IMG/VR virus record: IMGVR_UViG_3300037493_001899 | Location: 1-30,405 of that record | Reading direction: 5' to 3' (one strand) | Source: a virus | DNA: 30,405 nucleotides | Shown: piece after piece, positions 3,165 through 25,101 of the stretch | Layout of the letters: the number at the start of each line of letters is the position of its first letter | How positions within the stretch are numbered: the first letter of the stretch is position 1 | Position numbers and translations under genes: made by a program | Notes under the pieces: generated by a model | What the model was told of the DNA's origin: nothing | What the model saw: only the letters and a program-made list of their open reading frames with translations | The model's database searches: none

Positions 3165-3203
3165 TATTACATTCCCAAAAATTTCATATATTATAATTTC
3201 ATT

Positions 3204-4136: not shown

Positions 4137-4276
4137 AAATTATACTCAAAGAAATATCAATTAAGGAAGTTTTTACTGGATATGCGGACAATGATGATGA
4201 AGGTGTTGTAGGATTTCATGGAAAACTTGATATACGTCCCAAATATCAAAGAGAATTTGTATATGTAAGGAATTAG
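4133..4276 (+). pseudogene. 5' stub of a DUF262 (GmrSD-like) nuclease gene, 47 codons
   Basis: ATG 4133-4135 overlaps the stop of the EcoRI-type methyltransferase. The translation starts MKIILKEISIKEVFTGYADN and continues with EGVVGFHGKLDIRPKYQREFVY. I recognise this as the N-terminus of DUF262/GmrS-type proteins ((I/V).ELV.GY.DN...GVVGY.GKL.IRP.(Y/F)QREFVY.DKQR). After REFVY the sequence runs straight into the 23-bp repeat and stops at TAG 4274-4276. The remaining several hundred residues, including the nuclease part, are absent. In bacteria such genes commonly neighbour EcoRI-family methyltransferases. It is a truncation remnant, though a 47-residue peptide could still be made. Confidence 0.7.
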
Positions 4277-4286
4277 AACAACAAAT
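4264..4286 (+). repeat. Right copy of the 23-bp direct repeat
   Basis: Matches 3129-3151 at 22 of 23 positions. Read in the frame of the methyltransferase it gives CKELEQQILL and a TGA at 4294-4296 that overlaps the next ATG (4293-4295) as ATGA. This is probably the original end of the methyltransferase gene before the cassette arrived. The same DNA ends the DUF262 stub. Confidence 0.8.
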
Positions 4287-4292
4287 ATTATT

Positions 4293-4523
4293 ATGATTTT
4301 TACTAAGAATACAATTCCAAACTTCTACAAAGCAGTAATTCGAGTACTTAAGAAACTTAGGAAGAACGAATCTGTGCTTTTGAGTGACGAAGAATATTCT
4401 AAAAGGTTAACAATTTGTATAACATGTCCTTATCAAGAAGATAATCAGTGTCAGAAGTGTACATGCTTTATTTTTGCTAAATGTAGACTAAGTACAGAGA
4501 CCTGTCCTATAGGAAAATGGTAA
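4293..4523 (+). CDS. Small Cys-rich zinc-ribbon phage protein (76 aa)
   Basis: A Lys/Arg-rich N-terminal helix (residues 1-40) is followed by a Cys cluster: CxxC at 42-45, CxxCTC at 53-58, then Cys64 and Cys71, ending CPIGKW. The pattern KRL.IC..CPY...NQC..CTCF...K.RL.TE.CP.GKW is a recurring small phage protein that I know only as an uncharacterised zinc-binding family. It probably folds around one or two zinc ions; its binding partner is unknown. Its ATG overlaps the ancestral methyltransferase stop now stranded in the right-hand repeat. It precedes the portal gene by 24 bases. Confidence 0.7.
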   Translation: MIFTKNTIPNFYKAVIRVLKKLRKNESVLLSDEEYSKRLTICITCPYQEDNQCQKCTCFIFAKCRLSTETCPIGKW

Positions 4524-4547
4524 ATTTAAGCTAAAATAGATAAATAT

Positions 4548-6855: not shown

Positions 6856-8250
6856 ATGAACACAAAAAATACCGAAACTGGACTATTAGATAGCCTTAAA
6901 GAATCAATGAAATCTGCAATTTTGGAAGAGTATCCAAATATCGAAGCGGACTTAGATCCCGAAAGAGAAGCCACCATTAAGGGTGAAGAGGAAGTAACTG
7001 AAACACCACCTGCTGAAGAAACTGTTGAGAAAACAGAAACACCACCTGCAGAAGGAACTGTTGAGACAGAGAAAAAGACTGAAACACCTGTTGAGAAAAC
7101 AGAAACTCCTACTGAAAAGAAATTAGATGAGCGTGTTGAGGAACTAATTAAAGCAGAACCTCCAGGGGGTGGACATGCTAGTGCTAAAACTGTTGCTAGC
7201 TGGAAAGAAGCTACAACTGCATTATCAGAATTAAAAACTGAAAAAACAGAATTATCTAAGAAAGTAATTGAATTAGAGAATGAGGTTAAAAAGGCAAAAG
7301 GATCTGTAGAGATTCCAGAAACCATTAAAACTGAATTAGAGTATCTTCGTAATAAGGTAGCAGAGACAGATTACAGTGCTTTACCAGAAATTAAGGAGAC
7401 ATATGATAAACCAATCACACAAGCTACAGAAGCAATTATTCAATTATTCCAAAAAGCACAGGATGAAAAACGCCCTCGTGCAGAAGGTGTTGCTGATAGA
7501 CTTCGTGAGACAATTAAAGAAGTAGGTATATTTGGGTTAGAATGGGATGGACTATTAGAAGCATGTGCCGCAAGTAAAACTTTATCTGTGCAAGAACGCA
7601 AAGCAATTGAAACTACATTAGGTTCTGCATTAGCTCTACAGCAAAAGAAAGACTCTGCAATTAAAGAAGCAGGTGGTAAACTAAAAGAAATGTCTGAGAA
7701 GACAAAAGCTGAAGAAGCTGTTGCTGCAGAAAAATGGAACAACGAGCGTAGGGAATACCTTGCTGGATTAGAAGGTGCTATTACTACAATGCGTAGTAAG
7801 AATCCAAATCTAAATCCACCTGTTGATCCAGGTGCTAAAGCAACACCAGAGCAAAAAGCAGAATACAAGCAAGCATTGGCAGATTATACTGCAGATGAAC
7901 AAGTATTCTTTAAATATGCGAATACATTCCTAAAAGGCAAGGGCATAGGTATTGAAAATGCTGAAAAGATTGGTACAATTACACCAGATGAATTTGTAAC
8001 CATATTTGAAGGCTTTGTTAATGCAAAGCAATCACAAAAGCAAATTGAATCATTAAATAATAAAATAACTGAATTAACTACTAAACTAGATAATTACAAA
8101 AAGGGTGGTTCAACATTACCAAGTAAGACTGTCTCTACACCTTCAGCAGGTACAGCTACAGCAAAAACAACAGCACCTAAAAATGCAAATGAAGCTCGTC
8201 AAGCAATGAAAGATTCACTAGCAGCATTAGGAAGAGGTGGAGAAGAATAA
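6856..8250 (+). CDS. Putative capsid scaffolding protein (464 aa)
   Basis: Lies downstream of the portal and upstream of the capsid gene. Residues 45-90 are low complexity: repeats of TETPPAEETVEK-like units made almost wholly of T, E, P, K and V. Residues about 105-155 and 390-425 form heptad-like coiled coils, and the rest is highly charged and helical. The C-terminus is Ala/Lys-rich. This composition (acidic, extended N-terminus; coiled coil; basic-tinged C-terminus) is typical of scaffolds that template capsid assembly and are then removed, but scaffold sequences diverge too fast for a motif-based call. No protease motif is seen. Confidence 0.6.
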   Translation: MNTKNTETGLLDSLKESMKSAILEEYPNIEADLDPEREATIKGEEEVTETPPAEETVEKTETPPAEGTVETEKKTETPVEKTETPTEKKLDERVEELIKAEPPGGGHASAKTVASWKEATTALSELKTEKTELSKKVIELENEVKKAKGSVEIPETIKTELEYLRNKVAETDYSALPEIKETYDKPITQATEAIIQLFQKAQDEKRPRAEGVADRLRETIKEVGIFGLEWDGLLEACAASKTLSVQERKAIETTLGSALALQQKKDSAIKEAGGKLKEMSEKTKAEEAVAAEKWNNERREYLAGLEGAITTMRSKNPNLNPPVDPGAKATPEQKAEYKQALADYTADEQVFFKYANTFLKGKGIGIENAEKIGTITPDEFVTIFEGFVNAKQSQKQIESLNNKITELTTKLDNYKKGGSTLPSKTVSTPSAGTATAKTTAPKNANEARQAMKDSLAALGRGGEE

Positions 8251-8251
8251 T

Positions 8252-9361
8252 ATGAGTGATCAAGATGGATTAGGTCCAGAAGGACCAGCATTAGTAATGA
8301 AAACAAAAAATGGTAGTATAGTACCTATCCCTCGTCAAGTAGGTGGGGGATATGTACCACTAGCAAATCGTATACATCGTCCACCAGGATATGTACCACC
8401 AAAGCCTAAACAAGCAAGTGTAGTAGTAGAACCTACTCCTACACCAGCACCTGTACAGCAAGTAATTGAACCTGTACAACAAATATCTTCTACGCAGAGA
8501 AGTACAGTTATTAAACCGAAGTTTCAAGTACCTGTAATGCGTAAGACAAAAGAGGTTAAGGCTTTAGAACCTACATGTCCAGTAGAGACTATTGTTGAGA
8601 CTCCAGAGATGGACTTTTCAGATTGTAAAGTAGAAGAAAACCTACCTGTAGTACAAGACACAGCAAAGCAAGTAATGATACTTCGTCCAGCCTATAAAAT
8701 GACAGATGAGTTAGTATCATATGTGACAATGGCATTGTACGATAAAAGCAGTATGAAGTTTGAGGTTCGTAGAAATGACGCAGTAATATTTCACAGTAGG
8801 AATATGCTAGCAGACATATTTATGAAAAGTGGGTATGAGTGGTCTTTGTGGTGGGATGATGATATGATTCCATCAGTAGGCAATGCGGCATGGAGTAAAG
8901 CCAATATACCTGCAATTCCTAAATCTTATCCGGATAATTATTTAAATTTGAATCCAATTAAACGGTTACTACAACATAATAAGTCAATTATTGGTGGATT
9001 ATATTTTGGTAGGACTGGTAGACATGGGGCAATCTGTCAAAGGACAGCAGAAGACAACCAGATATTTCAACAAGTGCCAGATAATAGTATTCTAGCTCGT
9101 AAATGGGTCGGTACAGGATTTTTACTGGTACATAGATCAGTATACGAATCTATACAGGCACAGTTTCCTGAATTAGCACCTAAAGATAGTCCTAATCATT
9201 GGGAAAAAGTATGGGATTATTTCCGTCCTTCAGAACAGCAAGCAGAAGATGTTTCTTTCTGTCAAAGGGCATTGGAATGTGGACATCAGCCATATGTAGA
9301 TTTAGGAAATGTAGTTTTCCATTTAGGTAATTACGCCTATGGACCTTGGAATCAAATATAA
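8252..9361 (+). CDS. Glycosyltransferase, GT-A fold with DDD motif (369 aa)
   Basis: The start is taken at ATG 8252, one base after the scaffold stop; a GTG at 8237 would overlap the scaffold. Residues 1-135 form a Pro/Val/Gln-rich linker-like region. The catalytic part begins near VMILRPAYKMTDELVSYV. It carries WWDDDMI near residue 201, the metal- and nucleotide-sugar-binding DxD site of GT-A enzymes. KWVGTGFLLVHRSVYE and EDVSFCQRALECGHQPYVDLG follow, typical of GT2-like and related families. It would transfer a sugar from a nucleotide donor; the acceptor is unknown. Its place between scaffold and capsid genes suggests virion protein glycosylation, and the disordered N-terminus may tether it to the prohead. 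Confidence 0.75.
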   Translation: MSDQDGLGPEGPALVMKTKNGSIVPIPRQVGGGYVPLANRIHRPPGYVPPKPKQASVVVEPTPTPAPVQQVIEPVQQISSTQRSTVIKPKFQVPVMRKTKEVKALEPTCPVETIVETPEMDFSDCKVEENLPVVQDTAKQVMILRPAYKMTDELVSYVTMALYDKSSMKFEVRRNDAVIFHSRNMLADIFMKSGYEWSLWWDDDMIPSVGNAAWSKANIPAIPKSYPDNYLNLNPIKRLLQHNKSIIGGLYFGRTGRHGAICQRTAEDNQIFQQVPDNSILARKWVGTGFLLVHRSVYESIQAQFPELAPKDSPNHWEKVWDYFRPSEQQAEDVSFCQRALECGHQPYVDLGNVVFHLGNYAYGPWNQI

Positions 9362-9365
9362 AATT

Positions 9366-9749
9366 ATGAAATCAGACGAAATACGACAACTATTAGTAGA
9401 CAAAGCAGAAATACCTCTTAGATTATTTGTAGCAGCTAATCTAAAAAAGGAATTTCCTATCAATGAAACAACTGTAGAGCTAACTGACGATGCAGAAATC
9501 ACAGTGACGCACATAACAGAAGGAAAAAGAGAGAAAAAACTCATTGCTTTAGTATATCCAAGTGAAAAACAAGTATTAAAAGGTTTTTTAGCGCAACAAA
9601 ATGCTAATGGTAAGCTTTGGATATTCCAAATTTCCACTGGATGGATAGAATTTTTTAACAATCATGCATTAGAGGTACTAAAAGATGTCGAAACTAGCAA
9701 CAATAATAACAACATTCAAGAGACCACAGTACCTACAGAGGGCAATTGA
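9366..9749 (+). CDS. Unknown protein (127 aa)
   Basis: ATG 9366 follows the preceding stop by 4 bases in the recurring AAAATTATG context; an in-frame TTG at 9339 lies inside the glycosyltransferase gene and was not used. The product is a mixed alpha/beta soluble protein with a central KREKKLIALVYPSEKQVL segment, an aromatic patch (KLWIFQISTGWIEFF) and a low-complexity Asn-rich tail. The tail-coding DNA (9685-9749) doubles as the start of the next glycosyltransferase. No family recognised. Sitting between two glycosyltransferases, it may assist them, but nothing in the sequence shows this. Confidence 0.7.
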   Translation: MKSDEIRQLLVDKAEIPLRLFVAANLKKEFPINETTVELTDDAEITVTHITEGKREKKLIALVYPSEKQVLKGFLAQQNANGKLWIFQISTGWIEFFNNHALEVLKDVETSNNNNNIQETTVPTEGN

Positions 9750-11964
9750 TTCAACAATTGCTTTCTTTGGGTCAGAACATGAAATAATAGTAAGCTCAGC
9801 AGGATACAATGGAGAAGACATTGAAATCTGTAAAGATAAAGCTAGACTTGTTTCTTATAAAGGTGATCCAGGTGGTTGTAATTCTCTTTGGTTAAGGGGT
9901 GTATACCAAACAGACGCTGAATTCATTCATATTCTACATGATGATGATTATTATAATGAGTTAGAGAAAGATAATTTTAATCTAGCATTAGATTGTCTAC
10001 AAGAGGGAGTAATTCCACTATGGGATGGGCTAACACATTTTGAATCTAACGGATATGAACATAGAATTAGGCATTTAATACAAGATTATGGTGATTTACC
10101 TAGTATTGAAGCCAGTAAGCATTTACAACAATTTGGTGGTCTAACTATTAGTCCAATCTGTACACTATTGCACAGAGAGACTGCTTTAAATACTTTAAAA
10201 CGAGCAGAAGTCTTATTAAAAGATTGTAGTAGTAGGAAAGGTATGATGATAGGCAATGACCTATGGCTACACCTAACTAATTTCCAAAAGTTTAATAAGG
10301 TAAGATACTTTGAAAATATGTTTACTGTCTTTGGACATCACGACGGTTCAGAGACTGCAGCTAATGGCAATGCTTTAATTAAGTATTATGATATGGCAAG
10401 GAATATTTGGAAAAATGGTGGAAATACAAATAAGCCAAATGCAATCCACCTAGTACATGGTGAAATGTATCCGCTAGCTCAGAGGGCAAAGAATATTAAT
10501 GAAGTAAAGTATGACAAAGAAACTGTACGATATGAGGCATTACCAGAAATTGAGATAGATACACAATTACACACACCTACCATTAATTCATTAGTTGAGG
10601 AAACATGTAATAAAATAAATAATGAAGATATTATAGTGTATACTAATGGAGATATTATTTTATGTGATAATTTCTATGTAGAACTAAAAAAGGAATTCAA
10701 TACCTGTGGCTGGAGTCATAGAATAAATATTGGAGATGAATTAAATATTTATCCAAGACGAATAAATTATGATTTATATCCAGGAGCAGATTTATTTGCA
10801 TTTACCAAAAACTGGTGGTTACAAAACAAGGAATTCATACCTACATTATTAATTGGATATGAGGCGTGGGATACTGTCTTTATGCATAGGATGAAATTCA
10901 CAGGTGGTAAAGAAATAAAAGGATTGTCTTATCATATAAATCATCAATCACATTGGGAACAGCCACAAAATAGACATAGTGACAATGGGCAAATATTTAA
11001 TAGGAATGCAGCCAAAGATTATTTAATTAGAGCTGGAGTATATAACGGACAATACGAAGAAGGAGTAGTAGAATGCGAATTATTAGCAAAACCAATTAGA
11101 CAGTCAGTACAATCACCTAGTATACCAGTAGCCTCAGTAATTACAGCAAGACCAAGGTTTGTACAGCCACCAGCACCTAAAGCTCAATTACCAGATATTG
11201 CAAAAATTCATAGAGATGGATTATTTTTTAAAGAAGTTAAATCAGCCAATAAACTGACTCCAATTATTTTGGCATTACAATATTATAAGGGTGATCAATA
11301 TGCTGCAGAAAAGCTAATGAGGTTAATTGCCGATATAGAGTATGAAAAGAATTTAACAGATACTTTTCTAATTGTACATAGGTTCGATAGTCCAGCACCT
11401 AACCCAGAAACAATTAACCATTTAAAAACTAAATTTGCAAATGTAGTAATTAGGAGAGGTGCAAGAAATGTCAAAGGACATCCAGGCGGATGCAATGCGT
11501 TGTGGTGCGATACAATGGTTAATGCAAATGAAATAGGTAGAAATCGTAGAATTGATTTTATATTTACTTTTGAGGCAGATTGTGTACCTCTAAAACAAGA
11601 TTGGATAAAACATTTGAGACAAGTAGCTTTTGACGCAAAGCGTGATAATATTAAAGTTACAGGGTATTTAAATCCATCAAGTGGAAATGTTATTGAACAT
11701 ATAAATGGAAATGCTTTATTTTCTACAAAATTATTATTAGATTTTCCACAACTACTTAATTGCCCAGAAAATGATCCTTGGGATTTATGGAGTGTAAAAT
11801 TCTATAGTAGACATTGGAGAGGTAATTCGTTTATATTCAATGCTTATCGAAAGATTGGATTTACAGATGAGCAATTTTTAGACCTACAAAAAAAGGGATA
11901 TGCTCTTGTGCATGGTATACGAGATGATAATGGATTAGAGTTTATTAGAAAGATTATCTCTTGA
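9685..11964 (+). CDS. Multi-domain glycosyltransferase (759 aa), at least two GT-A modules
   Basis: Module 1 (residues 1-240) opens with KLATIITTFKRPQYLQRAI, the start of a GT2 fold, and has HILHDDDYY with the DDD site at 86-88. A middle module (about 250-450) contains EDIIVYTNGDIIL near 313-325, resembling a nucleotide-sugar-binding strand. A Pro-rich linker lies near 460-500. Module 3 (about 500-759) has FLIVHRFDSP and FIFTFEADCVPL near 625-636, where EAD may serve as DxD. PGGCN(S/A)LW appears in module 1 (62-69) and module 3 (about 600), indicating related modules. It would add one or more sugars to an unknown acceptor. The first 65 bases overlap the preceding gene. Confidence 0.8.
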   Translation: MSKLATIITTFKRPQYLQRAIDSTIAFFGSEHEIIVSSAGYNGEDIEICKDKARLVSYKGDPGGCNSLWLRGVYQTDAEFIHILHDDDYYNELEKDNFNLALDCLQEGVIPLWDGLTHFESNGYEHRIRHLIQDYGDLPSIEASKHLQQFGGLTISPICTLLHRETALNTLKRAEVLLKDCSSRKGMMIGNDLWLHLTNFQKFNKVRYFENMFTVFGHHDGSETAANGNALIKYYDMARNIWKNGGNTNKPNAIHLVHGEMYPLAQRAKNINEVKYDKETVRYEALPEIEIDTQLHTPTINSLVEETCNKINNEDIIVYTNGDIILCDNFYVELKKEFNTCGWSHRINIGDELNIYPRRINYDLYPGADLFAFTKNWWLQNKEFIPTLLIGYEAWDTVFMHRMKFTGGKEIKGLSYHINHQSHWEQPQNRHSDNGQIFNRNAAKDYLIRAGVYNGQYEEGVVECELLAKPIRQSVQSPSIPVASVITARPRFVQPPAPKAQLPDIAKIHRDGLFFKEVKSANKLTPIILALQYYKGDQYAAEKLMRLIADIEYEKNLTDTFLIVHRFDSPAPNPETINHLKTKFANVVIRRGARNVKGHPGGCNALWCDTMVNANEIGRNRRIDFIFTFEADCVPLKQDWIKHLRQVAFDAKRDNIKVTGYLNPSSGNVIEHINGNALFSTKLLLDFPQLLNCPENDPWDLWSVKFYSRHWRGNSFIFNAYRKIGFTDEQFLDLQKKGYALVHGIRDDNGLEFIRKIIS

Positions 11965-12199: not shown

Positions 12200-13444
12200 A
12201 TGGCCGAATGCACACAAGCACAATTAATAGACTTCGCACAGAAGAACAACAGCGCGATTACGCAAACTGTTGGACTCATCCTTGCAAAAGTAAATCCATG
12301 GGCAAGCATCTTCAAAGCATCAACTTGGCAGGGTGGTCTTGCGACCGTCCACCGCGTTGTTGTTGGTAGAGATGCCGCTCCCGCTAATCCTCAAAGCATC
12401 GTTGCTCCTTCCTTTACTGCGATTGAGCAAATGTGCACACCAGCTCTAGATGAAGACAAAGTAGGTACAACCTCCTTTGATGTCATTTTGGAAGAATTCG
12501 TAGGTCGTGGTCCAGGCGTATGCTTGAACTTAGGCTTCAATGCGTTCCAAAAGTCCTTCGACTTGGCTGTTGATTCAATCACAAAACTAGTCAAAGATAT
12601 CACTGTTGCTGACAATCGTTATCAAGCTCTTGCTCTTAGTGGCATTAAGGTTGTAACTGATTCTGCAACTGGTTTCTATGATCGTATCACTGGTGACGAG
12701 TTTGCCCTTGCAACTCCATTTGCTCCAGGTGTAACTCCAGATGGTGTCCCTACCTTTAAGGAAGTCAAACGCATAGCTCAGTATTTAACCACTGATTTAG
12801 GTGCAGAGACCTTCTCACAGGACATGAAAGCTGATGGTACTCCAATTGGTGCAAACATCAAAGTCATCGCAGGTGAAGAAGTACTAGACAAATTCCGTGA
12901 TCAACTAGGCGTCAAGGAATCCTACTACTACCTAGCTGCTGGTGGTTTCAAGTATGCTAACGAAGTCATTCAGTCTTATGACTTTGAAGGTCCTTACCAA
13001 GGCATCGGGTTCGCAAGTGATCCACAACCTCTCCGCTTGAACACAATTCCTGTGGACGGTGTTATCACTGAAGCAGACCTAATTGCTCCAAAAATCCCTG
13101 CAGGTGCAGACAACGGTGGAACAATCAACAAGCACAATCCTGCATACAGCAAAGCAAAGTATGAGCTATTGTTCATGATAATTGGACCAGACTCCTTCGA
13201 ACGCCAAATCCCAAGTCGTATGACTAAGTTAGGTACAAAAGGAATTAGCTTCCCTGATGCAATTGCTCCAGGCGAAATTAAATTCTTCGTGCCACAAGGT
13301 GCATGCGATGGATTACAGCGTGTTGGACAGCACTGGTATTCAATCCAAAGGGCAATTGAACCACACAAACCTCACTACATCGCAGCTGTCTTGTTCAAGC
13401 GTTGCAATGCAAGTGACCTAAGCTACTGCGACACAAGTCTCTAA
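12200..13444 (+). CDS. Major capsid protein (414 aa)
   Basis: It has its own promoter, a long leader and a strong terminator, as expected of the most abundant virion protein. Codon use differs clearly from its neighbours: many C-ending codons and higher G+C, a sign of very high expression. The product has the length and composition of HK97-fold capsid proteins. It begins with a helical segment (MAECTQAQLIDFAQ...), followed by beta-rich stretches, a long helix near residues 105-130 and a Cys-containing C-terminus. No unique motif is recognised, so the call rests on position after portal and scaffold and on expression signs. It could carry the sugars added by the glycosyltransferases encoded just upstream. 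Confidence 0.72.
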   Translation: MAECTQAQLIDFAQKNNSAITQTVGLILAKVNPWASIFKASTWQGGLATVHRVVVGRDAAPANPQSIVAPSFTAIEQMCTPALDEDKVGTTSFDVILEEFVGRGPGVCLNLGFNAFQKSFDLAVDSITKLVKDITVADNRYQALALSGIKVVTDSATGFYDRITGDEFALATPFAPGVTPDGVPTFKEVKRIAQYLTTDLGAETFSQDMKADGTPIGANIKVIAGEEVLDKFRDQLGVKESYYYLAAGGFKYANEVIQSYDFEGPYQGIGFASDPQPLRLNTIPVDGVITEADLIAPKIPAGADNGGTINKHNPAYSKAKYELLFMIIGPDSFERQIPSRMTKLGTKGISFPDAIAPGEIKFFVPQGACDGLQRVGQHWYSIQRAIEPHKPHYIAAVLFKRCNASDLSYCDTSL

Positions 13445-13543: not shown

Positions 13544-13960
13544 ATGTCCTGTTGTAATTCTCAACCGTTTAATTTTAATCCTACTGCTATAGCAGAAAAC
13601 TCTGTTGCAGGTTTATTTCAAGAACTATTTGGAGATGGTTCAAAACTAACATATACTGATGGCAAGTGGGTGTATGCTGAAATCATTGGATTTCCTAAAC
13701 TAGAAAATGAAGGTGTAATAGATTATCTACTTCGTATATTAGGTAGTGGACAGGTACTATTTAATAAAGGTGTATGGGTCGCTGGAAGCTATTGCAAAGG
13801 TTCTTTGGTAGCATATGATTATAAATATTATGTTGCAAATTTACTAACATCAGCAGAACCAACAACAAATGCAGATTGGTCAGAACTACTTTACTCACTA
13901 GAAGGATTACAAGGTCCAGCAGGTGTGGATGGAGAAGGCAACTTTACTTTAGGACAATAA
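13544..13960 (+). CDS. Virion appendage protein with carbohydrate-binding-like segment and collagen-like end (138 aa)
   Basis: The segment GVWVAGSYCKGSLVAYDYKY, followed by YVANLLTSAEPTTNADW, matches the aromatic spacing of CBM5/12-type (chitin-binding type 3) modules: W...Y..G..V.Y....Y.A.......P......W. The last residues start a collagen-like run (GLQGPAGVDGEGN). Small proteins like this often decorate the capsid or join fibres. First gene of the fibre unit, with its ATG 4 bases after the promoter box. The next gene starts 6 bases later and continues the collagen theme. A role in binding host polysaccharide is inferred from the module. Confidence 0.65.
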   Translation: MSCCNSQPFNFNPTAIAENSVAGLFQELFGDGSKLTYTDGKWVYAEIIGFPKLENEGVIDYLLRILGSGQVLFNKGVWVAGSYCKGSLVAYDYKYYVANLLTSAEPTTNADWSELLYSLEGLQGPAGVDGEGNFTLGQ

Positions 13961-13966
13961 AAAATT

Positions 13967-15811
13967 ATGATAACTTATATTCAGCCAGCCGTAGGGGGAA
14001 CAATTGTAATACCTGTACAAAAGCACAGGTTCGTTGCAGGAATGGTAGTATTTCATCAATATGGTGGATATTATCGTATCTCTGCAGTAAATCCAAATCA
14101 AATAGAATTAGTAAATTTAGGTATTGTATCTGAGTTTCCTTTCCCTCTTGGTTATTCAAATCCTGCACCAGGAGAAGTAATTAACAATAGTGGTGCATTA
14201 ATTCAGCCAAGTGGTGAACCTGGTCAAGATGGTAGTAAAGGAGATAAAGGTGATGTTGGTTCTCAAGGTATACAGGGTGATTCTGGAACAGTTACTTTAA
14301 CAGGGCAATTATTAGCAGTATATAACAGATTAATTGGCAAAGGTGGTCAAGGTGGTACTAATCAAATTGTATCTGGAAGCTATCAAGGAATTGGTGGTAG
14401 TTGTGGTGTCAGAAAATGCGGATATGATGGTAGAAATTTAGGTGTTAGAATTTGCCGCGCAAATCACGGATTTGCGGCTGGGCAGGTAATTAGGGTGTCA
14501 GCAAATTACGCTGATGAATTTGAATTAGCAGACGCAACAACATTTGAAAGAGCAGTTGCAATTGGTATGGTGCAATGTGTAATAGATAAAGACACATATG
14601 TTGTAATTACTAATGGTAGAGTAGAATTTAACGAAGACCAATGGCCTACATGGGCGCCAGATGGTTTATTTGCAGGTGCAATTTATTATCTATCTGATAC
14701 ACCTGGTGAATTGAGTTTAATGCCTGGTACAGAATCAAAGGCATTATTTGTAGGATATACAAATGATGTAGGGTTCTTCAATACCTATTCTGCAGGTGGT
14801 GGTGGAGAAATTGGACCTACAGGGAAAAATGCATTTACAATAACAATGGCTGATTTTGTACAGCCTGCAGAATTAGGAGATGTTGATGTAGCTGTAGAAG
14901 ACTCACTATTCTCATCAATTGGACAAGTAGTGTATATTGAAAATGGCGGTTATTACATAGTAGTAGCTAAAGTTACGCCATATTTAATTACATTGAGGAA
15001 TTTAGGATATTCAGATAATGCAGCAGTAGGCGTAACAGTACCTACAAATTCTGCATTAACTCCAGCGGGTACAAAAGGAAATAAAGGTGATCAAGGTGTA
15101 CAGGGTTTCCAAGGTTTCCCTGGCATTGATGGTAGTACAGTATTAAATGGTAATGGTATTCCAGACGGCTTAATAGGTATAGATGGAGATTTTTATCTAG
15201 ATTTACTAACCTATGAAATCTATGGACCTAAAGCAGGTGGTGTTTGGGGTGTTGGTGTTCTACTAATTGGAGCACAGGGCATACAAGGTTTCCAAGGTAA
15301 TCCAGGTGTTGATGGTAGAACACTATTAAATGGTGTTGTTGCTCCAACAATAGAAGGTGCTGATGGAGACTTTTATATCGATACTGTAGCAAGTGTTATC
15401 TACGGACCTAAAACAGCAGGTTTATGGGGTGCTGGAGTCAATTTGGTAGGTCCACAAGGTCTACAGGGTATCCAAGGTATTCAAGGAATTCAAGGTATAC
15501 AAGGTATCCCTGGATTAAATTCATTAGGTGCATTTATTGAGGTAGTTAACAACAAAGAATATGTCTTAGAAATCAATGCTGCAGTAGGATATACTGTAAC
15601 TGGAATTTCAGCTCGTACTTCTGCAGGTACATGTACTGTTAATTATTATAAGAACGGTATTTTAATAGCTGGAACAACAATTGCTGTTACTACAGTTAAA
15701 CAAACAGTAGCATTTAGTAATGCCTTCGTAGCTGGAGATGTATTAAGTGTTGCAGTAACTAGCAATGCTGGTGCTCTAGATTTAGCAGTTGAAATTTCAT
15801 TATCAGCATAA
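13967..15811 (+). CDS. Collagen-like fibre protein (614 aa)
   Basis: Four Gly-X-Y blocks are visible: about residues 83-107, 368-389, 435-450 and 495-516; the last consists of repeated GIQ triplets. Between them are globular beta-rich segments. Two of these share the pattern DGDFY(L/I)D followed by IYGPK..G.WG (DNA near 15185-15260 and 15360-15430), a motif common in collagen-like proteins of Bacteroidota. The C-terminal about 95 residues form a beta-sandwich-like head (GYTVTGISARTSAGTCTVNYY). It is probably a trimeric virion fibre whose triple helices act as rods and whose tips contact the host. Without a Shine-Dalgarno, the ATG follows AAAAAATT. Confidence 0.8.
   Translation: MITYIQPAVGGTIVIPVQKHRFVAGMVVFHQYGGYYRISAVNPNQIELVNLGIVSEFPFPLGYSNPAPGEVINNSGALIQPSGEPGQDGSKGDKGDVGSQGIQGDSGTVTLTGQLLAVYNRLIGKGGQGGTNQIVSGSYQGIGGSCGVRKCGYDGRNLGVRICRANHGFAAGQVIRVSANYADEFELADATTFERAVAIGMVQCVIDKDTYVVITNGRVEFNEDQWPTWAPDGLFAGAIYYLSDTPGELSLMPGTESKALFVGYTNDVGFFNTYSAGGGGEIGPTGKNAFTITMADFVQPAELGDVDVAVEDSLFSSIGQVVYIENGGYYIVVAKVTPYLITLRNLGYSDNAAVGVTVPTNSALTPAGTKGNKGDQGVQGFQGFPGIDGSTVLNGNGIPDGLIGIDGDFYLDLLTYEIYGPKAGGVWGVGVLLIGAQGIQGFQGNPGVDGRTLLNGVVAPTIEGADGDFYIDTVASVIYGPKTAGLWGAGVNLVGPQGLQGIQGIQGIQGIQGIPGLNSLGAFIEVVNNKEYVLEINAAVGYTVTGISARTSAGTCTVNYYKNGILIAGTTIAVTTVKQTVAFSNAFVAGDVLSVAVTSNAGALDLAVEISLSA
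15449..15514 (+). repeat. Short tandem repeat encoding GIQ triplets
   Basis: A 9-base unit resembling GGTATTCAA is repeated with third-base changes across 15449-15514 inside the collagen-like gene. Such arrays can change length by slippage in whole triplets, altering rod length without breaking the frame. Confidence 0.75.
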
Positions 15812-15812
15812 T

Positions 15813-17042
15813 ATGGCATTTAAAAAAACAACGATAGTACCTAACAGGGATTGTGAGTTTTGGGATATCAGTTTAATATCCAAAGGAGAAAACTATGCAA
15901 TTGCTGGTACTACTGGATTAAGTGGTCTGACTACTACAGATTGGACTAGTTATGCAGGTGATATTACTAATAAAATCATTGCATACAATATAAAAACATA
16001 CACAAACTTATGGGATGGTCGTCCTACTGGTACTACAAAAAAAGCCAGAAATATGAATATCCACAAAGGACCAGTAGGGCTAATGTCGACAGCTGGTGGA
16101 GCATTTAATTATGAGTGGCTTTCATTTTCATACGGTAATGCAAGTGGTACAATGTTTCAGAGGTTAGATAATCCTGCAATTACAATTAATCCAGCAACAG
16201 TCTTTCCAGCTCAAGCTGCATTCTTTAATCAATTCAGAGATAGATTTATGGGGCATTTCGATGCTGCAGGTTCGCCTGTAGTAGCTGTAGAAAGCAGCAT
16301 TAATCAAATAAGTGTGTGGAAAGCTTCTATTGGTACTCCATATGTATTTACTGGATATTCTCCAATTTTTTTAAATAGTAATGAATTCGTAGGTTTAGAG
16401 AGACTAGTAGCAGATACTGGTAATGTAGTTTTTTATACCAAAGATACTACAGGTCAAACTACAGATAAATTTGCAAGAAGGGGTACTACTATTTATTGTA
16501 GGTGTGAGGTTGATAATTATTTAATTGAAAGAACTGTTGTAAGCAGTCTAGATATAAAATGCTTAATGCAAACATGGTTTATTGGTACTAGGTCATTTAT
16601 AGTATACAATGACTCAAATTGTAATGCTAAAACATTAGAGTCAGCAAACTACCAATACATAACAGAAGAGCAAATATTAGGAACTGTTACTCCGCAATCA
16701 ATACAACTATCAACTGTTGTTAAACCAGGTGCTGGTGCAGATACTACATTAGGAACTACTGTAGCATTTACAAATGTTACTTATATCAGTGTTGTTGTAT
16801 CAAATTCACAAGCTGAATCAATGGCTGTAGTGTCAGATTTAACAGATATAACATATGTTTTAGTCGTTGTAACAGCACCACCTCAAGAAGATTTAACATT
16901 AGCTTCTGAAGTATCATTTAATTTCGTAAATTACGAATATGATCCTGTAACACCAATACCTCCAGCAACAATTATTAATGTTGACGCAGGAACAGAACAA
17001 ATTTTGGGTACTATGACTCCACAATCTATACTTTATGTCTAA
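15813..17042 (+). CDS. Putative tail/fibre structural protein (409 aa)
   Basis: ATG 15813 follows the preceding stop by one base; an earlier TTG at 15789 lies in the previous gene and was not used. The product is beta-rich and aromatic, starting MAFKKTTIVPNRDCEFWDIS. The C-terminal third is rich in Val, Thr and Ser. EEQILGTVTPQSIQ (about residues 285-298) recurs as GTEQILGTMTPQSIL at the very end, so this part contains a repeated unit. No enzyme motif is seen. Its place between fibre genes implies a structural or receptor-binding role. The stop overlaps the next start by 8 bases (ATG 17035). Confidence 0.65.
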   Translation: MAFKKTTIVPNRDCEFWDISLISKGENYAIAGTTGLSGLTTTDWTSYAGDITNKIIAYNIKTYTNLWDGRPTGTTKKARNMNIHKGPVGLMSTAGGAFNYEWLSFSYGNASGTMFQRLDNPAITINPATVFPAQAAFFNQFRDRFMGHFDAAGSPVVAVESSINQISVWKASIGTPYVFTGYSPIFLNSNEFVGLERLVADTGNVVFYTKDTTGQTTDKFARRGTTIYCRCEVDNYLIERTVVSSLDIKCLMQTWFIGTRSFIVYNDSNCNAKTLESANYQYITEEQILGTVTPQSIQLSTVVKPGAGADTTLGTTVAFTNVTYISVVVSNSQAESMAVVSDLTDITYVLVVVTAPPQEDLTLASEVSFNFVNYEYDPVTPIPPATIINVDAGTEQILGTMTPQSILYV

Positions 17043-18021
17043 TCAAGCTAAATTTAACAATATGGAATTAAAAGGCTCAGTAAGTGGTGAATATTTGCTA
17101 TCAGTTATCAAAACTGATGGAACAGAAGTATTTCCATTAGGTAAAGAATTTAGGAAAAACTTAGTATTAAATAGTGGTTTAGACATGTTATTTAACACTG
17201 GACAAGCAGGCAATGGTTTTGCTTCAGTAATGACAGCTTGTAGAGCAGGTGGTGGAAATACTACAGCTAATGTAGCAGATGTTGTGCTTGCTATACCATT
17301 TTCAGCATCAAATACATATACTGGTGCATGCGGAACAAATGTTGATACCGCAAATTCAAGTAGTATTCATAAACGCACATTTGATTTTGCTGCAGAAGTA
17401 GGAACATCAAAAAATTATAATGAATTAGGATTTTCAAACGATACAAACCAAGCGACTAATTTATTTTCTAGAGTAGTATTGCCTAGTACAGTTACTGTAC
17501 TTGTGGGAGAAAAATTAAGAGTAGTATATCAATTAAAATGTACATTAGTACAGACTACAACAGCAGCAACAGTAACTCTAAACAATGGAGGTTTCACTGG
17601 AGATGGGTCAATTAAATGCGTTGGTATATATTCTCAAATATTTGGAACAGTAAATCCAAATGGTTCTGAATCAGCTGGCGTAGCATCGTATTTCTTAGGT
17701 AGGTCGGCTGGTAATGCATGGTTATTAACTAATTCTACATATCCATCTATTAATACTGATTTATCACCTAGTTATACAGGTGTTTCACAAGCTGATTCTC
17801 AGAGTGCAACTGCCTCAGGAACATATGTAGGAGGAACATTCTATAAAGATTTAACATATGTATGGTCTGCATCTATACCTGCAAGCACAGAAACTGATGC
17901 AAGAGCAGTAATGTTTGGAGGAAGTGTAGCTAGAGGTTCTCTTTGGATATTTAATGCTAATCAAACAAAAGAAAACACAAAAACACTAACTCTTGTATTA
18001 AGAGTAGCATGGACACGATAA
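17035..18021 (+). CDS. Fibre-tip paralogue A (328 aa)
   Basis: Paralogous to the next gene. Shared blocks are (K/R)TDGTE.FP.GK followed by KNL.LNSGLD, and later NLFSR with a V..GE.LRVVY.L segment; both proteins end with a beta strand leading to W(T). The protein is Ser/Thr/Asn-rich with beta patterning and no Gly-X-Y run. The shared N-terminal half probably folds as the attachment or trunk domain, while the divergent middle may face the host. Such duplicated fibre genes often give alternative receptor specificities. It overlaps the preceding gene and lies 4 bases before its paralogue. Confidence 0.65.
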   Translation: MSNQAKFNNMELKGSVSGEYLLSVIKTDGTEVFPLGKEFRKNLVLNSGLDMLFNTGQAGNGFASVMTACRAGGGNTTANVADVVLAIPFSASNTYTGACGTNVDTANSSSIHKRTFDFAAEVGTSKNYNELGFSNDTNQATNLFSRVVLPSTVTVLVGEKLRVVYQLKCTLVQTTTAATVTLNNGGFTGDGSIKCVGIYSQIFGTVNPNGSESAGVASYFLGRSAGNAWLLTNSTYPSINTDLSPSYTGVSQADSQSATASGTYVGGTFYKDLTYVWSASIPASTETDARAVMFGGSVARGSLWIFNANQTKENTKTLTLVLRVAWTR

Positions 18022-18025
18022 AATT

Positions 18026-19090
18026 ATGAAAATTAACGCAAATTTAGATACAAAATTAGATGGTAGGTTTAAAATAGCTGTTGTTAAAGCAGATGGAACT
18101 GAAAGATTTCCAATCGGTAAAGGATATCATAAGAACCTTATTTTAAACAGTGGTTTAGATTTATTTTTTACTCACTATACTCAGTATTCACCAGCTTTTA
18201 ATACAGCCCCATCATTTTCTACTGAATTAAGTGCTAATTGTCGTATTGGAACAGGTACAACTGCTGTTTCACCTACAGATGTTGCATTAGTAAATCCTGT
18301 ACGCTGGCAAAGTGCGTATAATGAAGCTATTGGTGTTCCAGGCGGAGGAAACGCATGTCAAACAATATATGATTTAGTCGCTGGTTCTTGCACACATCGT
18401 AGAACATATGATTATCCGACCGAAGTAGGAACTGTAATATATACAGAATTAGGTATTGCACCATTGCAAACAGGTAATTTATTTTCTAGAATTGTAATTA
18501 GTCCAGTCACAGTTAATGCTGGGGAACAATTACGAGTAGTATACGAATTGACAATTACTATTGCTCAATATATTACACCTACTGCTGCATCTGGCTCATC
18601 TGGAACATTTGATTGTGCTGGAAATTTAAAATTTGTTGGGCAATTAGCAAGTTTATTTGGAGCAATTGGAACAGATGGTCTTAGAGTAAATGGTTGGAAA
18701 AATTCTATAATTAATGGTTTTGCTAGTAATCCTAGTTGGTCATATTATCCATTATATGCTTGGCTAACTGTGCATAGTGCATTCCCAGCTAGTGATACAA
18801 ATTTAGCTATATCTTATTTAGCAGGACAATATATAGGAGCCAATAGTGTGTATGTTGCTGGATCATTTACAAAATATGCAGAGTGGATATTTTCTGCTGT
18901 AAATCCAGTATCAACAGTAAGTACTGTTAATTCTATTATAATTACACCAAGAAGCTCGTGGTCTGGTACTAGTGATCCTCAATTGGGTTTATTTCCAGGG
19001 CATGGTTTACAATTACTGTTGAATGGTGTACAGACAAAACAAGCAGATTATAAACTAACACTACAATTTACTTGGACAGCATCAAGATAA
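18026..19090 (+). CDS. Fibre-tip paralogue B (354 aa)
   Basis: Shares the DGTERFPIGK, KNLILNSGLDLFF and GNLFSRIVISPVTV-type blocks with the preceding protein, in the same order, followed by a GEQLRVVYELTITIAQ strand. The C-terminal half differs: it has extra aromatic residues (NPSWSYYPLYAWLTV) and an extended SWSGTSDPQLG loop. It probably arose by tandem duplication and diverged in the exposed half. The start follows AAAATT; the stop TAA overlaps the next ATG (TAATG). Confidence 0.65.
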   Translation: MKINANLDTKLDGRFKIAVVKADGTERFPIGKGYHKNLILNSGLDLFFTHYTQYSPAFNTAPSFSTELSANCRIGTGTTAVSPTDVALVNPVRWQSAYNEAIGVPGGGNACQTIYDLVAGSCTHRRTYDYPTEVGTVIYTELGIAPLQTGNLFSRIVISPVTVNAGEQLRVVYELTITIAQYITPTAASGSSGTFDCAGNLKFVGQLASLFGAIGTDGLRVNGWKNSIINGFASNPSWSYYPLYAWLTVHSAFPASDTNLAISYLAGQYIGANSVYVAGSFTKYAEWIFSAVNPVSTVSTVNSIIITPRSSWSGTSDPQLGLFPGHGLQLLLNGVQTKQADYKLTLQFTWTASR

Positions 19091-19969: not shown

Positions 19970-21802
19970 ATGATCGTATCGGAAATTTATACAAAGATAA
20001 AAAACGCATTGGGAAATTGTGGGCAAGAATTAGTATTTGATAGGATTTCCGATGCTGTTGAGGCTCTTGCAAATAAAGGGCAATGGGATCCACTACAAGC
20101 CTACATTGACCTACAAGGCAGTGCTGATAGTAATCTAATGATTCTACCAGAGTTTGTGGAAGCTCCGATGAAAATCAATATCAACAAACAACCTAGTTTT
20201 GCTCGTGGTAAACTATTTGAATTCCGTCAAAACACTGATGGGACTGCAATTGGGGATGAATTAGGCTGGGCATGGGCAGATAGAGGTGAAGTACCTTATT
20301 CTATATTTCCTACAGATGCAACATTTCAATTAAAAGCTTCTATAACTGGTGTAATTAGAGCATATGGGTATGATGTAAATAATAGAGAAATATTTGATGC
20401 CAATGGATTGCCTGGATATTTAGTAACTACTGTCTCTGAAGGACCGATATTTAAAACTATCTCATCAGTATCTAAAGATGCTACTATTGACTCAGTTACA
20501 TTGTCTGCAAATGATCAATTAATAGCATTATACGAGCCACGAGCATATGATCCTCTATATAGAGTAATTAAACTGTCTAAAAAGGCTGCAGCTATTAGGA
20601 TGTTATTCCGTAGACGCACATTCCGTGTTCAATCACTAGAAGATTGGATACCTCTCAATTCTAGACTAGCAATCCAATTAATGGTTCAAGCGGTCAGTCT
20701 ATGGACTAAAGGACAGGAGATTGAAATTGCAGAAAAGTACGAGGCACAGGCATTAAAACTTTTACAAGAAGAACAAGACTCAAGAAATGTCTTTTCCTCT
20801 GTATCTGATTCCACAGAAATATCTACAGTTAGAAATCAAACATATTTAACTACTGACGCAATTGTAGTAGGCGATATCTATGATGACGCTAGTGACATTT
20901 TTGGTGCAATTGGAAGACAAAAACTATTTGATAAAATATCTGACGCAGTAGACTTATTAGCCTGTAAGTCAAATTGGGACGGTCTAACTGGAGTGTTAGA
21001 CTTATCAACTGCTGGAAATTGTGAATATACATTACCAGACTTTGTCGAAACTGTATTAAAAGTAAACTATCATGGCATTCCTACATTAGGGCATAACAAA
21101 TGGTTTGAATTTCATTTAAATGGTCCTGGTTCTTGGGATTATGCAGGACAATTTACATGGAAAGATAGGGGAGATTTCCCTACTTTTAAAGATATTCAAG
21201 TACCAGCACAATTAATTGTATTTTTAGACTCAGCGACTGACAACAATATACAAATTCGAGTCAAAGGATGGGATGAAAAAGGAAACAGAATATTCCAAAA
21301 TGGACAGGATGGGTTTATTCTACCTGCTGTATATGGCTATCCATTCCCAGACACTACAATTCCATTTGTAGGACGCATTGAGTCAATTGTAGCGCAATCT
21401 GATCCACAAGGATTTATTAAAATCTCAGCTCTAGATAGTGGTAGAGAAGATGGAACTTTATTAGCTGTCTTAGAACCAGGACAGAGACAAACTTCTTATC
21501 GTAGAATTAAAGTGCCAGGTGGTGGAAGCTGTGTTAAAATTCTATTTAGAAAGAAAACAAGACGCATTAATTCATTAAATGATTTAATCCCACTAGAATC
21601 AAGATTAGCAATTAAAATGGCAATGATGTCATTAAAAACATATGCTAGTGTCGAAAAGGGCGCTGCAGAATTAGCAGCAAGTTTTGAAGCAACAGCTACA
21701 CGACTATTAGAAGAGGAACAGGCATTGAGAAATCCACAAATTGATATGCCAGTCCAATTCGATATGGTTACCGCTCCAGGATCAATGTATAACATGACAT
21801 AA
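19970..21802 (+). CDS. Tail structural protein made of two tandem copies of one domain (610 aa)
   Basis: Residues about 1-285 and 300-595 are diverged copies. LVFDRISDAVEALANKGQWD aligns with KLFDKISDAVDLLACKSNWD. LPEFVE aligns with LPDFVE. RRRTFRVQSLEDWIPL aligns with RKKTRRINSLNDLIPL, and LNSRLAIQL aligns with LESRLAIKM. Each copy ends in a helix rich in E and A (KLLQEEQDSRN, RLLEEEQALRN). Its place directly before the nozzle-like gene suggests an adaptor or tail-tube ring component. A two-domain protein can convert a 12-fold portal ring to 6-fold tail symmetry with six subunits; this is inference. First gene of the tail unit. Confidence 0.7.
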   Translation: MIVSEIYTKIKNALGNCGQELVFDRISDAVEALANKGQWDPLQAYIDLQGSADSNLMILPEFVEAPMKININKQPSFARGKLFEFRQNTDGTAIGDELGWAWADRGEVPYSIFPTDATFQLKASITGVIRAYGYDVNNREIFDANGLPGYLVTTVSEGPIFKTISSVSKDATIDSVTLSANDQLIALYEPRAYDPLYRVIKLSKKAAAIRMLFRRRTFRVQSLEDWIPLNSRLAIQLMVQAVSLWTKGQEIEIAEKYEAQALKLLQEEQDSRNVFSSVSDSTEISTVRNQTYLTTDAIVVGDIYDDASDIFGAIGRQKLFDKISDAVDLLACKSNWDGLTGVLDLSTAGNCEYTLPDFVETVLKVNYHGIPTLGHNKWFEFHLNGPGSWDYAGQFTWKDRGDFPTFKDIQVPAQLIVFLDSATDNNIQIRVKGWDEKGNRIFQNGQDGFILPAVYGYPFPDTTIPFVGRIESIVAQSDPQGFIKISALDSGREDGTLLAVLEPGQRQTSYRRIKVPGGGSCVKILFRKKTRRINSLNDLIPLESRLAIKMAMMSLKTYASVEKGAAELAASFEATATRLLEEEQALRNPQIDMPVQFDMVTAPGSMYNMT

Positions 21803-21804
21803 TT

Positions 21805-24800
21805 ATGACAGACGCAGACAAATTTAAATCAGAAAGTGGTGGATTTTGGCTTGGTGGATGTAATACATCACTAGAACCAGAGTCTATTCCATCAGCACCT
21901 TATCCACAATATGCATGGGGTGAAAACATTGATAATTCAAGAGGTCAATTATCTACTAGGGATGGATTTGATCAAGTATTAACATTGCCAGGTGGAAAAC
22001 CACAAATGCTAGCTCATTTCCGTACAAGCAATAACTGGGTTGATTATGCTGTATGCGTAGTTTCTGGACAAGTTTATGTCTCACCAGCACCATTCACACA
22101 ATGGAGGAATTTAGGAGTATCCTTAGATGGTAATGTAAATATCTGTACTCATACAATTGTTGAAAGAGGTGCTAAAAGAACAGAAGAGGATGGAGATGGT
22201 AAGGGTAGAGAATTAATCTGTCCTAAACGATACATTGTCATTCAAGATGGTAAAAATCCTGCAGTAGCATGGGATGGTGGTTATGTAGTAAATAGACCAC
22301 CAGAAATTCCAATTGGCAAATGGATGGCTTATGTAAATAACCGCTTATTTGTTTCTGTTGGAGAAGAAATATTTTGGTCTGATATTGCTGATCCATTTTC
22401 CTTTTACGACATGGGATTTTTAGCTGATGGTGGTCAATTCAGACTTCGTTCACCTGTCACAGGTTTAGCAATGAGTCCAGACGGACAATCATTACTAGCC
22501 TTTGAAACTGACGCATGTTGGAGGTTTTTAGTTAGCACACAAATTAAAAGAGAAAACGACTGGAAAACTACTCCAGGATTTCAAACTAAAATTCTCAATG
22601 GTGTTGGCTGTTTAGCTGGTAATTCCTTTGTAGAACACTATGGAGATTTATGGTGGTGGTCGAATAAAGATTTAATTAGTTTTCGTAGGGCATTATCTGT
22701 CAATACAGAAGATGAATTAAATCAGACAGATTTAGAAATGTCTAGAAGTAGGAATAAATTTGGAAATATACAAGATGATGTCTGTGGTATTTCACATTTA
22801 AACTATTTGTTAGTCAATACACCTGTTAACGAAATTTGGGCTAAAAACAATAGTCCTGCAAGTCTATTAAATACTAATACCTCACCAGCCTGGATGGGAA
22901 TTTGGACTGGATTAAGAGTCAAAGAATTTGCAAGTTTTTATTCAAATGGGGAGCTATATACATTAGCATTATCACATGACTACGATAATAAAACACGACT
23001 ATGGAGACTATTTAATGGTAGGCAAGAAGACAACACAAATAGAATTAAATGTGCCTATGAGTCAAGAGCTCACAGCTTTAGTGCTGTAACACAAATGAAA
23101 CGAATCCGTTGGTTTGATTTTATGATTCAACGCATTTGGGGAGATGTGGATATTAAAGGTTGGTTTCGTGGTCTAAGAGGCGGATGGAATCAAGCCCTAG
23201 AAAAAGCAATTAAATCAGCTAAAGCCTTAGATGAATATGGTGGAAAGGTACTACAATTTCGTAGGTTATACAGCGAAGATGTAGCACCAGAGGGATTGGA
23301 TTGTCAAAATTGTGGTCAAGAATCTAACCTTATTGATACTATTGACTTTGCATTCCAAATACAATTGCAGTGGGAGGGTGAATGCTCACTAGATAATTAC
23401 CGTTTAGCCGCATTTATAGAAACTGAGCAATTAACAGGACAATGTGAGACAGACGAGGTTGTACCTGCTGTAGTAAACAATTGTTTGCCAGCATTAAACT
23501 ATCGTCCTACTTATTTTGAGCAACCTACAAATACAGTTAATGTACCATTCCAGCAAGATTTGTGCGATGGTGCAAGCCCTATGGTAGCTGTAACTGTAAG
23601 CTCTTTAAATACTCCTACAGATACAAATATTATAAAAAATCAAATACAAGGTAGTCAGTGTCCATGTACAGCAATGCGATCATTTACATCTACTCAAACT
23701 GCTACAGCAAATTGTGTAGTAGGTGATGGAGCTATTGTTACTAAAACTGCTACAGCAACATCATCAATTAGTCAATACGATGCTGATAAAAAAGCATTAG
23801 CACAAGCACAAGCATTAGCAGATGCAGAATTACATTGTACCTGGACTTCTACGGAGACGGTTACTGTACAATGTGCTGTAGGGTTAATGGGGCAACCAGT
23901 TACTAAAACTGCTTCTTATACTAGTACAATATCTCAAAAAGACGCAGACGAGCATGCTACAGCAATGGCTACTAATATGGCAAATCATGAGTTAATTTGC
24001 TCAGCACCTGTAGATTTTGTTAGAATTGGTGGTATTGGTGGTGGATTAGGGCCTAACATGGGAAATATCGGACTGTATAAAAACAATGGAAGTCCATCTA
24101 ATAATTGGCAGGGTTCTGCAGGTACAGATGGTATTGTTTATGGTATGGCAGAAAATCCAGCATTTACTTATGTTGTTGGGGATTTTAATAAGTATAATGG
24201 TGCTAATTCATATTGTTTAGTAAAAATGTCTAGATATGGAGTAAGAGACTCATCATTTGCTAATTCATTCTATACTAATACTGGTGCTAGGTCAGCCTCT
24301 GTAGTTTGTGCTGTTGGTGTGAATGGTTACGATCAAGTAGCATTAGGTGGATTATTTACACATTGGAGGGGTGTTGCTGCTGAGAACTTTGTAATAGTAA
24401 ATGGTACAACAGGGGCTAAAGTATCTACTGCATTTCCAGGTGCTGATGGATTAATTAGAAAAGTCATCAAGAGTGGAAATGGTTGGATAATAATTGGTGA
24501 TTTTAATAATATTGGTACTAATGCACGCCCTTATATAGCTAGATTAAATGGTGATGGAAGTTTAGATACTGCCTTTTTACCTAACGATAGTGGTACAGAG
24601 TTTTTTGGTCCTAATGGTCCTGTGGATAGTATATGTGCAAAAGGAACAGGCTTTATGGTGAGTGGTAGGTTCTCAATGTGGGGCAAAACAATCCAAAAAG
24701 GCATAACTGAATTAACAGCTATAGGTACATTAAATAGTTTCTTTAATTATTCTGGTGATCCAATAAATGGTATAGCTCAAGTAGCCTATGATGGTAGGTA

Positions 24801-25101
24801 TATCTATGTCGGATTTAGTGGTAAACTAAGCAGAGTACAATTATCTGGTGTTATTGATCCAATCTATCCAAACATATCATTTGACGGAGATTTAAATGCA
24901 ATCATAATTAATGGTTTGAATTACATATTATTAGGTGGTTTTAAAAATGTTATTTGTTCCTTTGGTGAGACTACAATTACCAGTCAAGGACAGTTTGCAT
25001 GTCTGCTTAATAAAGATGGTATAATTAACACACAATTTAACTATAATGAAGCTACAGGAAGAGGGTGGTTTGGTAACACATTATACGCTGGAATTGTCTA
25101 A
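21805..25101 (+). CDS. Tail nozzle-like protein fused to DUF5977-like and delta-60-like repeats (1098 aa)
   Basis: Residues 1 to about 560 resemble podovirus tail nozzle proteins: a beta-propeller-like region with RGQLSTRDGFDQVL, the NNRLFVSVGEEIFWSDIADP stretch and LAMSPDGQSLLAFETDACW. Residues about 624-730 hold two repeats of the form (F/W)TST.T.T..C.VG, then KTA..TS(S/T)ISQ.DAD.HA.A.A....A..ELXC, as in DUF5977 repeats of Bacteroidota surface proteins. Residues about 732-1098 form a propeller of units such as RLNGDGSLDTAF and VGDFNKYNGANS, matching delta-60 repeats. The C-terminal parts probably stick to the host surface, making this a combined conduit and receptor-binding protein. It follows the preceding gene by 2 bases. 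Confidence 0.72.
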   Translation: MTDADKFKSESGGFWLGGCNTSLEPESIPSAPYPQYAWGENIDNSRGQLSTRDGFDQVLTLPGGKPQMLAHFRTSNNWVDYAVCVVSGQVYVSPAPFTQWRNLGVSLDGNVNICTHTIVERGAKRTEEDGDGKGRELICPKRYIVIQDGKNPAVAWDGGYVVNRPPEIPIGKWMAYVNNRLFVSVGEEIFWSDIADPFSFYDMGFLADGGQFRLRSPVTGLAMSPDGQSLLAFETDACWRFLVSTQIKRENDWKTTPGFQTKILNGVGCLAGNSFVEHYGDLWWWSNKDLISFRRALSVNTEDELNQTDLEMSRSRNKFGNIQDDVCGISHLNYLLVNTPVNEIWAKNNSPASLLNTNTSPAWMGIWTGLRVKEFASFYSNGELYTLALSHDYDNKTRLWRLFNGRQEDNTNRIKCAYESRAHSFSAVTQMKRIRWFDFMIQRIWGDVDIKGWFRGLRGGWNQALEKAIKSAKALDEYGGKVLQFRRLYSEDVAPEGLDCQNCGQESNLIDTIDFAFQIQLQWEGECSLDNYRLAAFIETEQLTGQCETDEVVPAVVNNCLPALNYRPTYFEQPTNTVNVPFQQDLCDGASPMVAVTVSSLNTPTDTNIIKNQIQGSQCPCTAMRSFTSTQTATANCVVGDGAIVTKTATATSSISQYDADKKALAQAQALADAELHCTWTSTETVTVQCAVGLMGQPVTKTASYTSTISQKDADEHATAMATNMANHELICSAPVDFVRIGGIGGGLGPNMGNIGLYKNNGSPSNNWQGSAGTDGIVYGMAENPAFTYVVGDFNKYNGANSYCLVKMSRYGVRDSSFANSFYTNTGARSASVVCAVGVNGYDQVALGGLFTHWRGVAAENFVIVNGTTGAKVSTAFPGADGLIRKVIKSGNGWIIIGDFNNIGTNARPYIARLNGDGSLDTAFLPNDSGTEFFGPNGPVDSICAKGTGFMVSGRFSMWGKTIQKGITELTAIGTLNSFFNYSGDPINGIAQVAYDGRYIYVGFSGKLSRVQLSGVIDPIYPNISFDGDLNAIIINGLNYILLGGFKNVICSFGETTITSQGQFACLLNKDGIINTQFNYNEATGRGWFGNTLYAGIV

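Follow-up and report, generated by a model that had tools for sequence, protein, structure and literature searches.

The window analysed here is the whole of a 30,405-base IMG/VR virus record, and its genes are arranged as in a short-tailed phage. Family libraries gave no name to its portal-, scaffold- and capsid-like ORFs, and an Rfam search of the window returned no match. Virion-protein-like ORFs lie downstream of the nozzle gene, and at least four fibre-type genes are present in addition to it. The structural genes considered in this study are the following:

4548-6764, portal-like ORF, named from order and size
6856-8250, scaffold-like ORF, named from order and size
12200-13444, capsid-like ORF, named from order and size
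13544-19090, block of fibre-type genes
13544..15811, + strand, two collagen-like fibre ORFs (13544-13960 and 13967-15811)
17035..19090, + strand, two more fibre-type ORFs (17035-18021 and 18026-19090), both matching the tail fibre family phrog_4176 (E 1.9e-29 and 3.2e-23)
19970..21802, + strand, tail adaptor, a fused tandem pair whose function is assigned from gene order and homologues; the expected attachment ring of the nozzle
21805..25101, + strand, fusion ORF of 1098 aa in a single unbroken frame

The two halves of the adaptor are 33% identical (E 2e-43), and approximately 14 homologues from other viral contigs consist of a single copy; such a covalent pair could match a 12-fold adaptor ring to a 6-fold nozzle. 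In L046, L047 and L035, adaptor domains lie close to the C-terminus of 1199-1226 aa proteins, whose long N-terminal parts are unexplained.

The ORF at 21805-25101 starts 2 nt past the adaptor stop codon, the following ORF beginning at 25107, and is a genuine fusion of a nozzle, a pair of DUF5977 units and a DUF5122 propeller. Past the nozzle it runs on for approximately 550 residues, with GC values along the ORF of 36.9/37.3/39.0/35.5% and alike codon use. Its parts are:

21805..23439, + strand, nozzle domain (residues 1-545), platform and first beta-propeller of the P22 gp10 class, from homology, AlphaFold2 and Foldseek
23440..23664, + strand, low-confidence linker (residues 546-620; pLDDT 35-45), without a family
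23665..23835, + strand, DUF5977 unit 1 (residues 621-677), phage subtype, from PF19404, AlphaFold2 and tree
23836..24000, + strand, DUF5977 unit 2 (residues 678-732), phage subtype, from the same evidence
24133..25098, + strand, predicted second beta-propeller of about six blades (residues ~777-1098), DUF5122/delta-60 type, from PF17164 and AlphaFold2 blades

The sequence-only reading had proposed a nozzle-like propeller followed by two DUF5977-like repeats and a delta-60-like propeller. Pfam, AlphaFold2 and Foldseek agree with these domains; the layout needs correction in one detail, the linker at residues 546-620.

No Pfam or PHROG match was obtained for residues 1-542. Single-sequence scans with the full nozzle, the capsid-like protein and the adaptor found no relatives, tblastn against phage records gave a lone insignificant match (E 0.6), and PDB sequence searches returned nothing useful. 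Relatives were instead recovered with the degenerate pattern IPIGKxMAY, which led to ten contigs with a nozzle relative in every one, and then by an alignment scan of viral contigs, which yielded 44 viral loci with relatives of residues 1-542. The similarity spans the entire stretch of residues 1-541. Among the approximately 45 nozzle relatives, the ORF normally ends 0-63 aa beyond the nozzle; the few exceptions include L043, L045 and L052, and the exact architecture of the window is seen in one record only. Neither DUF5977 nor DUF5122 exceeded the cut-off in any of 36 related virus records; weak DUF5977 matches in 12 related viral records were all under the cut-off and were not counted.

The fold assignment comes from structure prediction. 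The first nine PDB ranks in a Foldseek search with the AlphaFold2 model of the nozzle (pTM 0.73, pLDDT 66.7) were occupied by phage tail or virion entries only, the matches including Pa223, VP1, P22, Pam1, Sf6 and SU10, with E from 1.3e-19 (Pa223) to 2e-9. Matches among viral predicted structures include several labelled 'P22, Gp10, DNA-stabilising'. The domain belongs to the P22 gp10 class: its platform and beta-propeller fold agrees with solved nozzles, and the gene adjoins a tail adaptor homologue, itself assigned by homology and order. The nozzles P22 gp10, Sf6 gp8, Pa223, VP1 and Pam1 resemble residues 1-542 in fold and length (query TM 0.49-0.63), but they show approximately 10% identity and, at 442-521 aa, lack the stalk-plus-propeller extension.

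Extra domains are found in other nozzles as well. SU10 gp17 (a chain of 910-922 aa) likewise bears added exposed domains, which move at infection (PMC9509320); these are Ig-like and form an insertion between blades 2 and 3 of the propeller, whereas the addition in the window is C-terminal, past the platform. The crAss001 muzzle gp44 combines a T7-like ring-joining domain and a propeller with large extras thought to touch the cell (PMC10172136), but these are Ig-like and 'crass fold' insertions, in contrast with DUF5977 and DUF5122 in the window. Among the relatives, the nozzle ORFs of L007, L008 and L010 carry an extra module near the nozzle end (in L010, a match to the tail protein phrog_5939), and those of L009 and L011 are without it. 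The nozzle of L052 is distributed over two ORFs (2195-4909 and 4897-6126), with Big_1/Big_3_5 Ig-like domains at the break; its tail looked DUF5977-like by eye, a candidate that was dropped, 51 of 2000 shuffles having equalled its score. L234 and L240 were also dropped as further nozzle-DUF5977 fusions: their A2 match falls at model positions 255-303, i.e., on a small module inserted in the nozzles of relatives and not on the nozzle proper.

The DUF5977 family (PF19404) was matched in two stretches (E 1.9e-9; 38.4 bits against a cut-off of 25). The two units share 55% identity, and in the model each combines a beta-hairpin with a helix, for the most part at pLDDT over 90. In fibrillar adhesins, DUF5977 is one of the curated families of stalk domains (PMC8286594), and stalk use is what these proteins would have in common with the window protein, whose anchor, in contrast, is a phage nozzle and whose units are of a phage subtype. 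In a sample selected by pattern, 17 of the 18 Bacteroidota genomes had classic DUF5977 above the cut-off, and none of the 8 others did. Matches to the DUF5977 pattern in genomes were mostly from Psychrobacter, and the Psychrobacter genome examined had no DUF5977 match.

The window units differ from the classic Bacteroidota surface subtype in tree, indel and motif. They have a TSTQT start, a three-residue deletion and no ANxNGTC end, and the viral units of L234-L240 share motif and deletion with a window-like prophage unit. In a tree of 36 units, derived from a short alignment with viral units gathered through a window-derived pattern, the 20 host units form one group (support 100/99) and the window falls outside. 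Among genomes, the strongest match of the window pair (45% over 109 residues, E 3.2e-13) sits in an 891-aa gene flanked by a tape-measure-like gene and a terminase, and therefore in a prophage. Across 396 Bacteroidota genomes, the phage subtype was found only in one prophage tail protein. A second DUF5977 set occurs near the tape measure gene in Rufibacter immobilis, on a 43,497-base contig; L237, of the same size, is a virus record in IMG/VR. The genome copies of the phage subtype that were found all lie in prophage tail clusters.

Acquisition of both repeat classes from the host had been suggested previously, and a search of host genomes for the closest repeats had been set beforehand as its test. 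For DUF5977 this search led to prophages and phages, and by that test host origin of this half is refuted: the subtype is phage-only, host units group apart and, in the 396 Bacteroidota genomes, copies are restricted to a prophage. To judge from these sequence relationships, the stalk units probably come from a module pool circulating among phages, not straight from a host. Phage-type units also occur in several genes of single phages. L238 (2037-9245) carries them on a capsid-like protein, on a connector-like protein that has three, and on a large vWA/P-domain protein, and L239 (5144-10789) shows a similar multi-gene distribution, with a calcineurin-like phosphoesterase joined to the vWA/P-domain protein.

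The second propeller was recognised by DUF5122 (PF17164; E 3.8e-11, 43.5 bits against a cut-off of 27), with one blade at 24481-24576 (40 bits) and a weaker one at 24169-24258 (15.5 bits); the delta-60 repeat TIGR02608 reached 18.4 bits, below its curated cut-off of 76.5 bits. AlphaFold2 produced four blades at pLDDT of approximately 88 and the last ~115 residues at approximately 30, so that ring closure is not visible in the model, and PDB matches of the model were mostly beta-propellers with low TM. Matches to the C-terminal segment were present in 37 of 297 Bacteroidota, 22 of 195 Verrucomicrobiota and 1 of 299 Pseudomonadota genomes, and a one-blade pattern occurred in at least 119 viral contigs, the phage status of which is not proven for every one. 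DUF5122 is as common in Verrucomicrobiota as in Bacteroidota and abundant in viral contigs, and the relatives of the window propeller are both host and viral. The earlier view that both repeat classes are typical of Bacteroidota holds for DUF5977, but not for DUF5122.

Two contigs (G957 and G959) are syntenic with the window tail genes, and their portal, capsid and adaptor proteins match those of the window at E 1e-49 to 1e-50 (adaptor ~1e-50). Their nozzles (L382 and L383; 683 and 680 aa; nozzle match E ~1e-51) end in a degenerate DUF5977-like unit, which scored 13.8 and 14.9 bits, a value reached by none of 2000 shuffles; Pfam gave no match on these tails, the unit being too degenerate. Whereas the syntenic tail genes and the DUF5977-like nozzle tail are shared with the window, the kin phages differ in their shorter nozzle, in their single adaptor and in the location of the DUF5122 propeller (PF17164, E 2.6e-33), which lies on a separate collagen fibre of 781-785 aa between the capsid and adaptor genes, in L382 at a position equivalent to 13544..15811 of the window. 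These comparisons make a DUF5977-like nozzle tail likely ancestral in the lineage of the window and its kin, and the window would either have gained a propeller on such a tail or have received one from the fibre. The window propeller shows no particular closeness to the one on the kin fibre, and we do not regard a relocation inside this lineage as established.

Taken together, these results show the fusion, its predicted folds, the phage subtype of the stalk units and the arrangement in kin. In our view the protein is probably a nozzle of the P22 gp10 class extended at its C-terminus by an arm, comprising the linker, a two-unit DUF5977 stalk and a DUF5122 head; six such arms would project from the rim and bind a surface. 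We infer the copy number of six per virion from T7 and SU10. Since in both phages the C-terminal end of the nozzle is part of the platform ring that adjoins the adaptor (PMC6702177; PMC9509320), the arms are expected to radiate from the outer rim of the platform, like built-in short fibres, and not from the nozzle tip or directly on the DNA conduit as had been proposed. There they would attach to some component of a surface, with the nozzle providing the seal and the passage for DNA. The stalk would derive from the phage-borne pool, probably being already present in nozzles of close kin, and the head would be of the module class that kin carry on their separate collagen fibre. The extra exposed domains of the SU10 and crAss001 nozzles, together with receptor binding by tail tubular proteins (PMC7241545), make this arm model plausible. 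Nevertheless, the other fibre genes of the phage may do the adsorbing, and DUF5977 on capsid-like and connector-like proteins of other phages could reflect virion assembly and not adhesion. The earlier proposal was that one protein could carry both adsorption and ejection; that the nozzle alone adsorbs is unlikely, given the collagen-like and phrog_4176 fibres also encoded in the window.

Possible, although we judge it rather unlikely, is a docking or stabilising role, in which the DUF5977 units and propeller hold fibres or virion proteins to the tail without host contact. The distribution of same-subtype units over the capsid-like, connector-like and vWA/P-domain proteins of L238, and similarly in L239, is in keeping with such a role, as are the fibre dock beside the platform in T7 (PMC6702177) and the short fibres that dock on SU10 nozzles (PMC9509320). 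However, a whole second propeller exceeds the needs of a dock, and the fibre location of the kin propeller suggests outward exposure. We would give little credence to a model in which arms and channel work as one unit, arm binding opening the nozzle via the platform and the tandem adaptor (six chains, twelve domains) hard-wiring the 12-to-6 step between portal and nozzle; if true, receptor sensing, symmetry adapter and conduit would all have been made by gene fusion. Direct capture of the arm from a Bacteroidota host surface protein appears quite improbable: although classic DUF5977 arrays are found in nearly all sampled Bacteroidota, and some of their genomes match the DUF5122 part, the units are of the phage-only subtype, DUF5122 is not Bacteroidota-specific and the extension and the nozzle have similar GC. 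Furthermore, kin nozzles already have the unit-like tail and the kin propeller is located on a fibre, and direct host acquisition is therefore not supported. An assembly or annotation artefact merging two genes is very hard to credit, despite the exact architecture being limited to one record, given the single open frame, the similar GC and codon use, and kin nozzles in which a DUF5977-like unit likewise follows at this point.

The arm model is our preferred reading. The window documents a nozzle bearing stalk and head at its C-terminus instead of a blade insertion, and a phage-specific subtype of DUF5977 spread across a variety of virion genes. Should the arms bind the cell, recognition of the host and gating of the channel would reside on one polypeptide, and the long-standing question of how podoviral tails open by receptor contact would therefore become testable by trimming a single gene. 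The results also correct a common inference, as a domain typical of Bacteroidota is no proof of acquisition from the host.

Two further observations concern genes upstream in the window. An HNH endonuclease ORF (2045-2560; PF13392, E 1.2e-10) lies in another frame within a DNA methyltransferase ORF (1284-3164) that has profile matches at its two ends only, an arrangement that looks like a homing insertion. Glycosyltransferase-like genes are located between the scaffold and capsid genes both in the window (8237-11964) and in the kin contig L300 (9466-11138), pointing to possible virion glycosylation.
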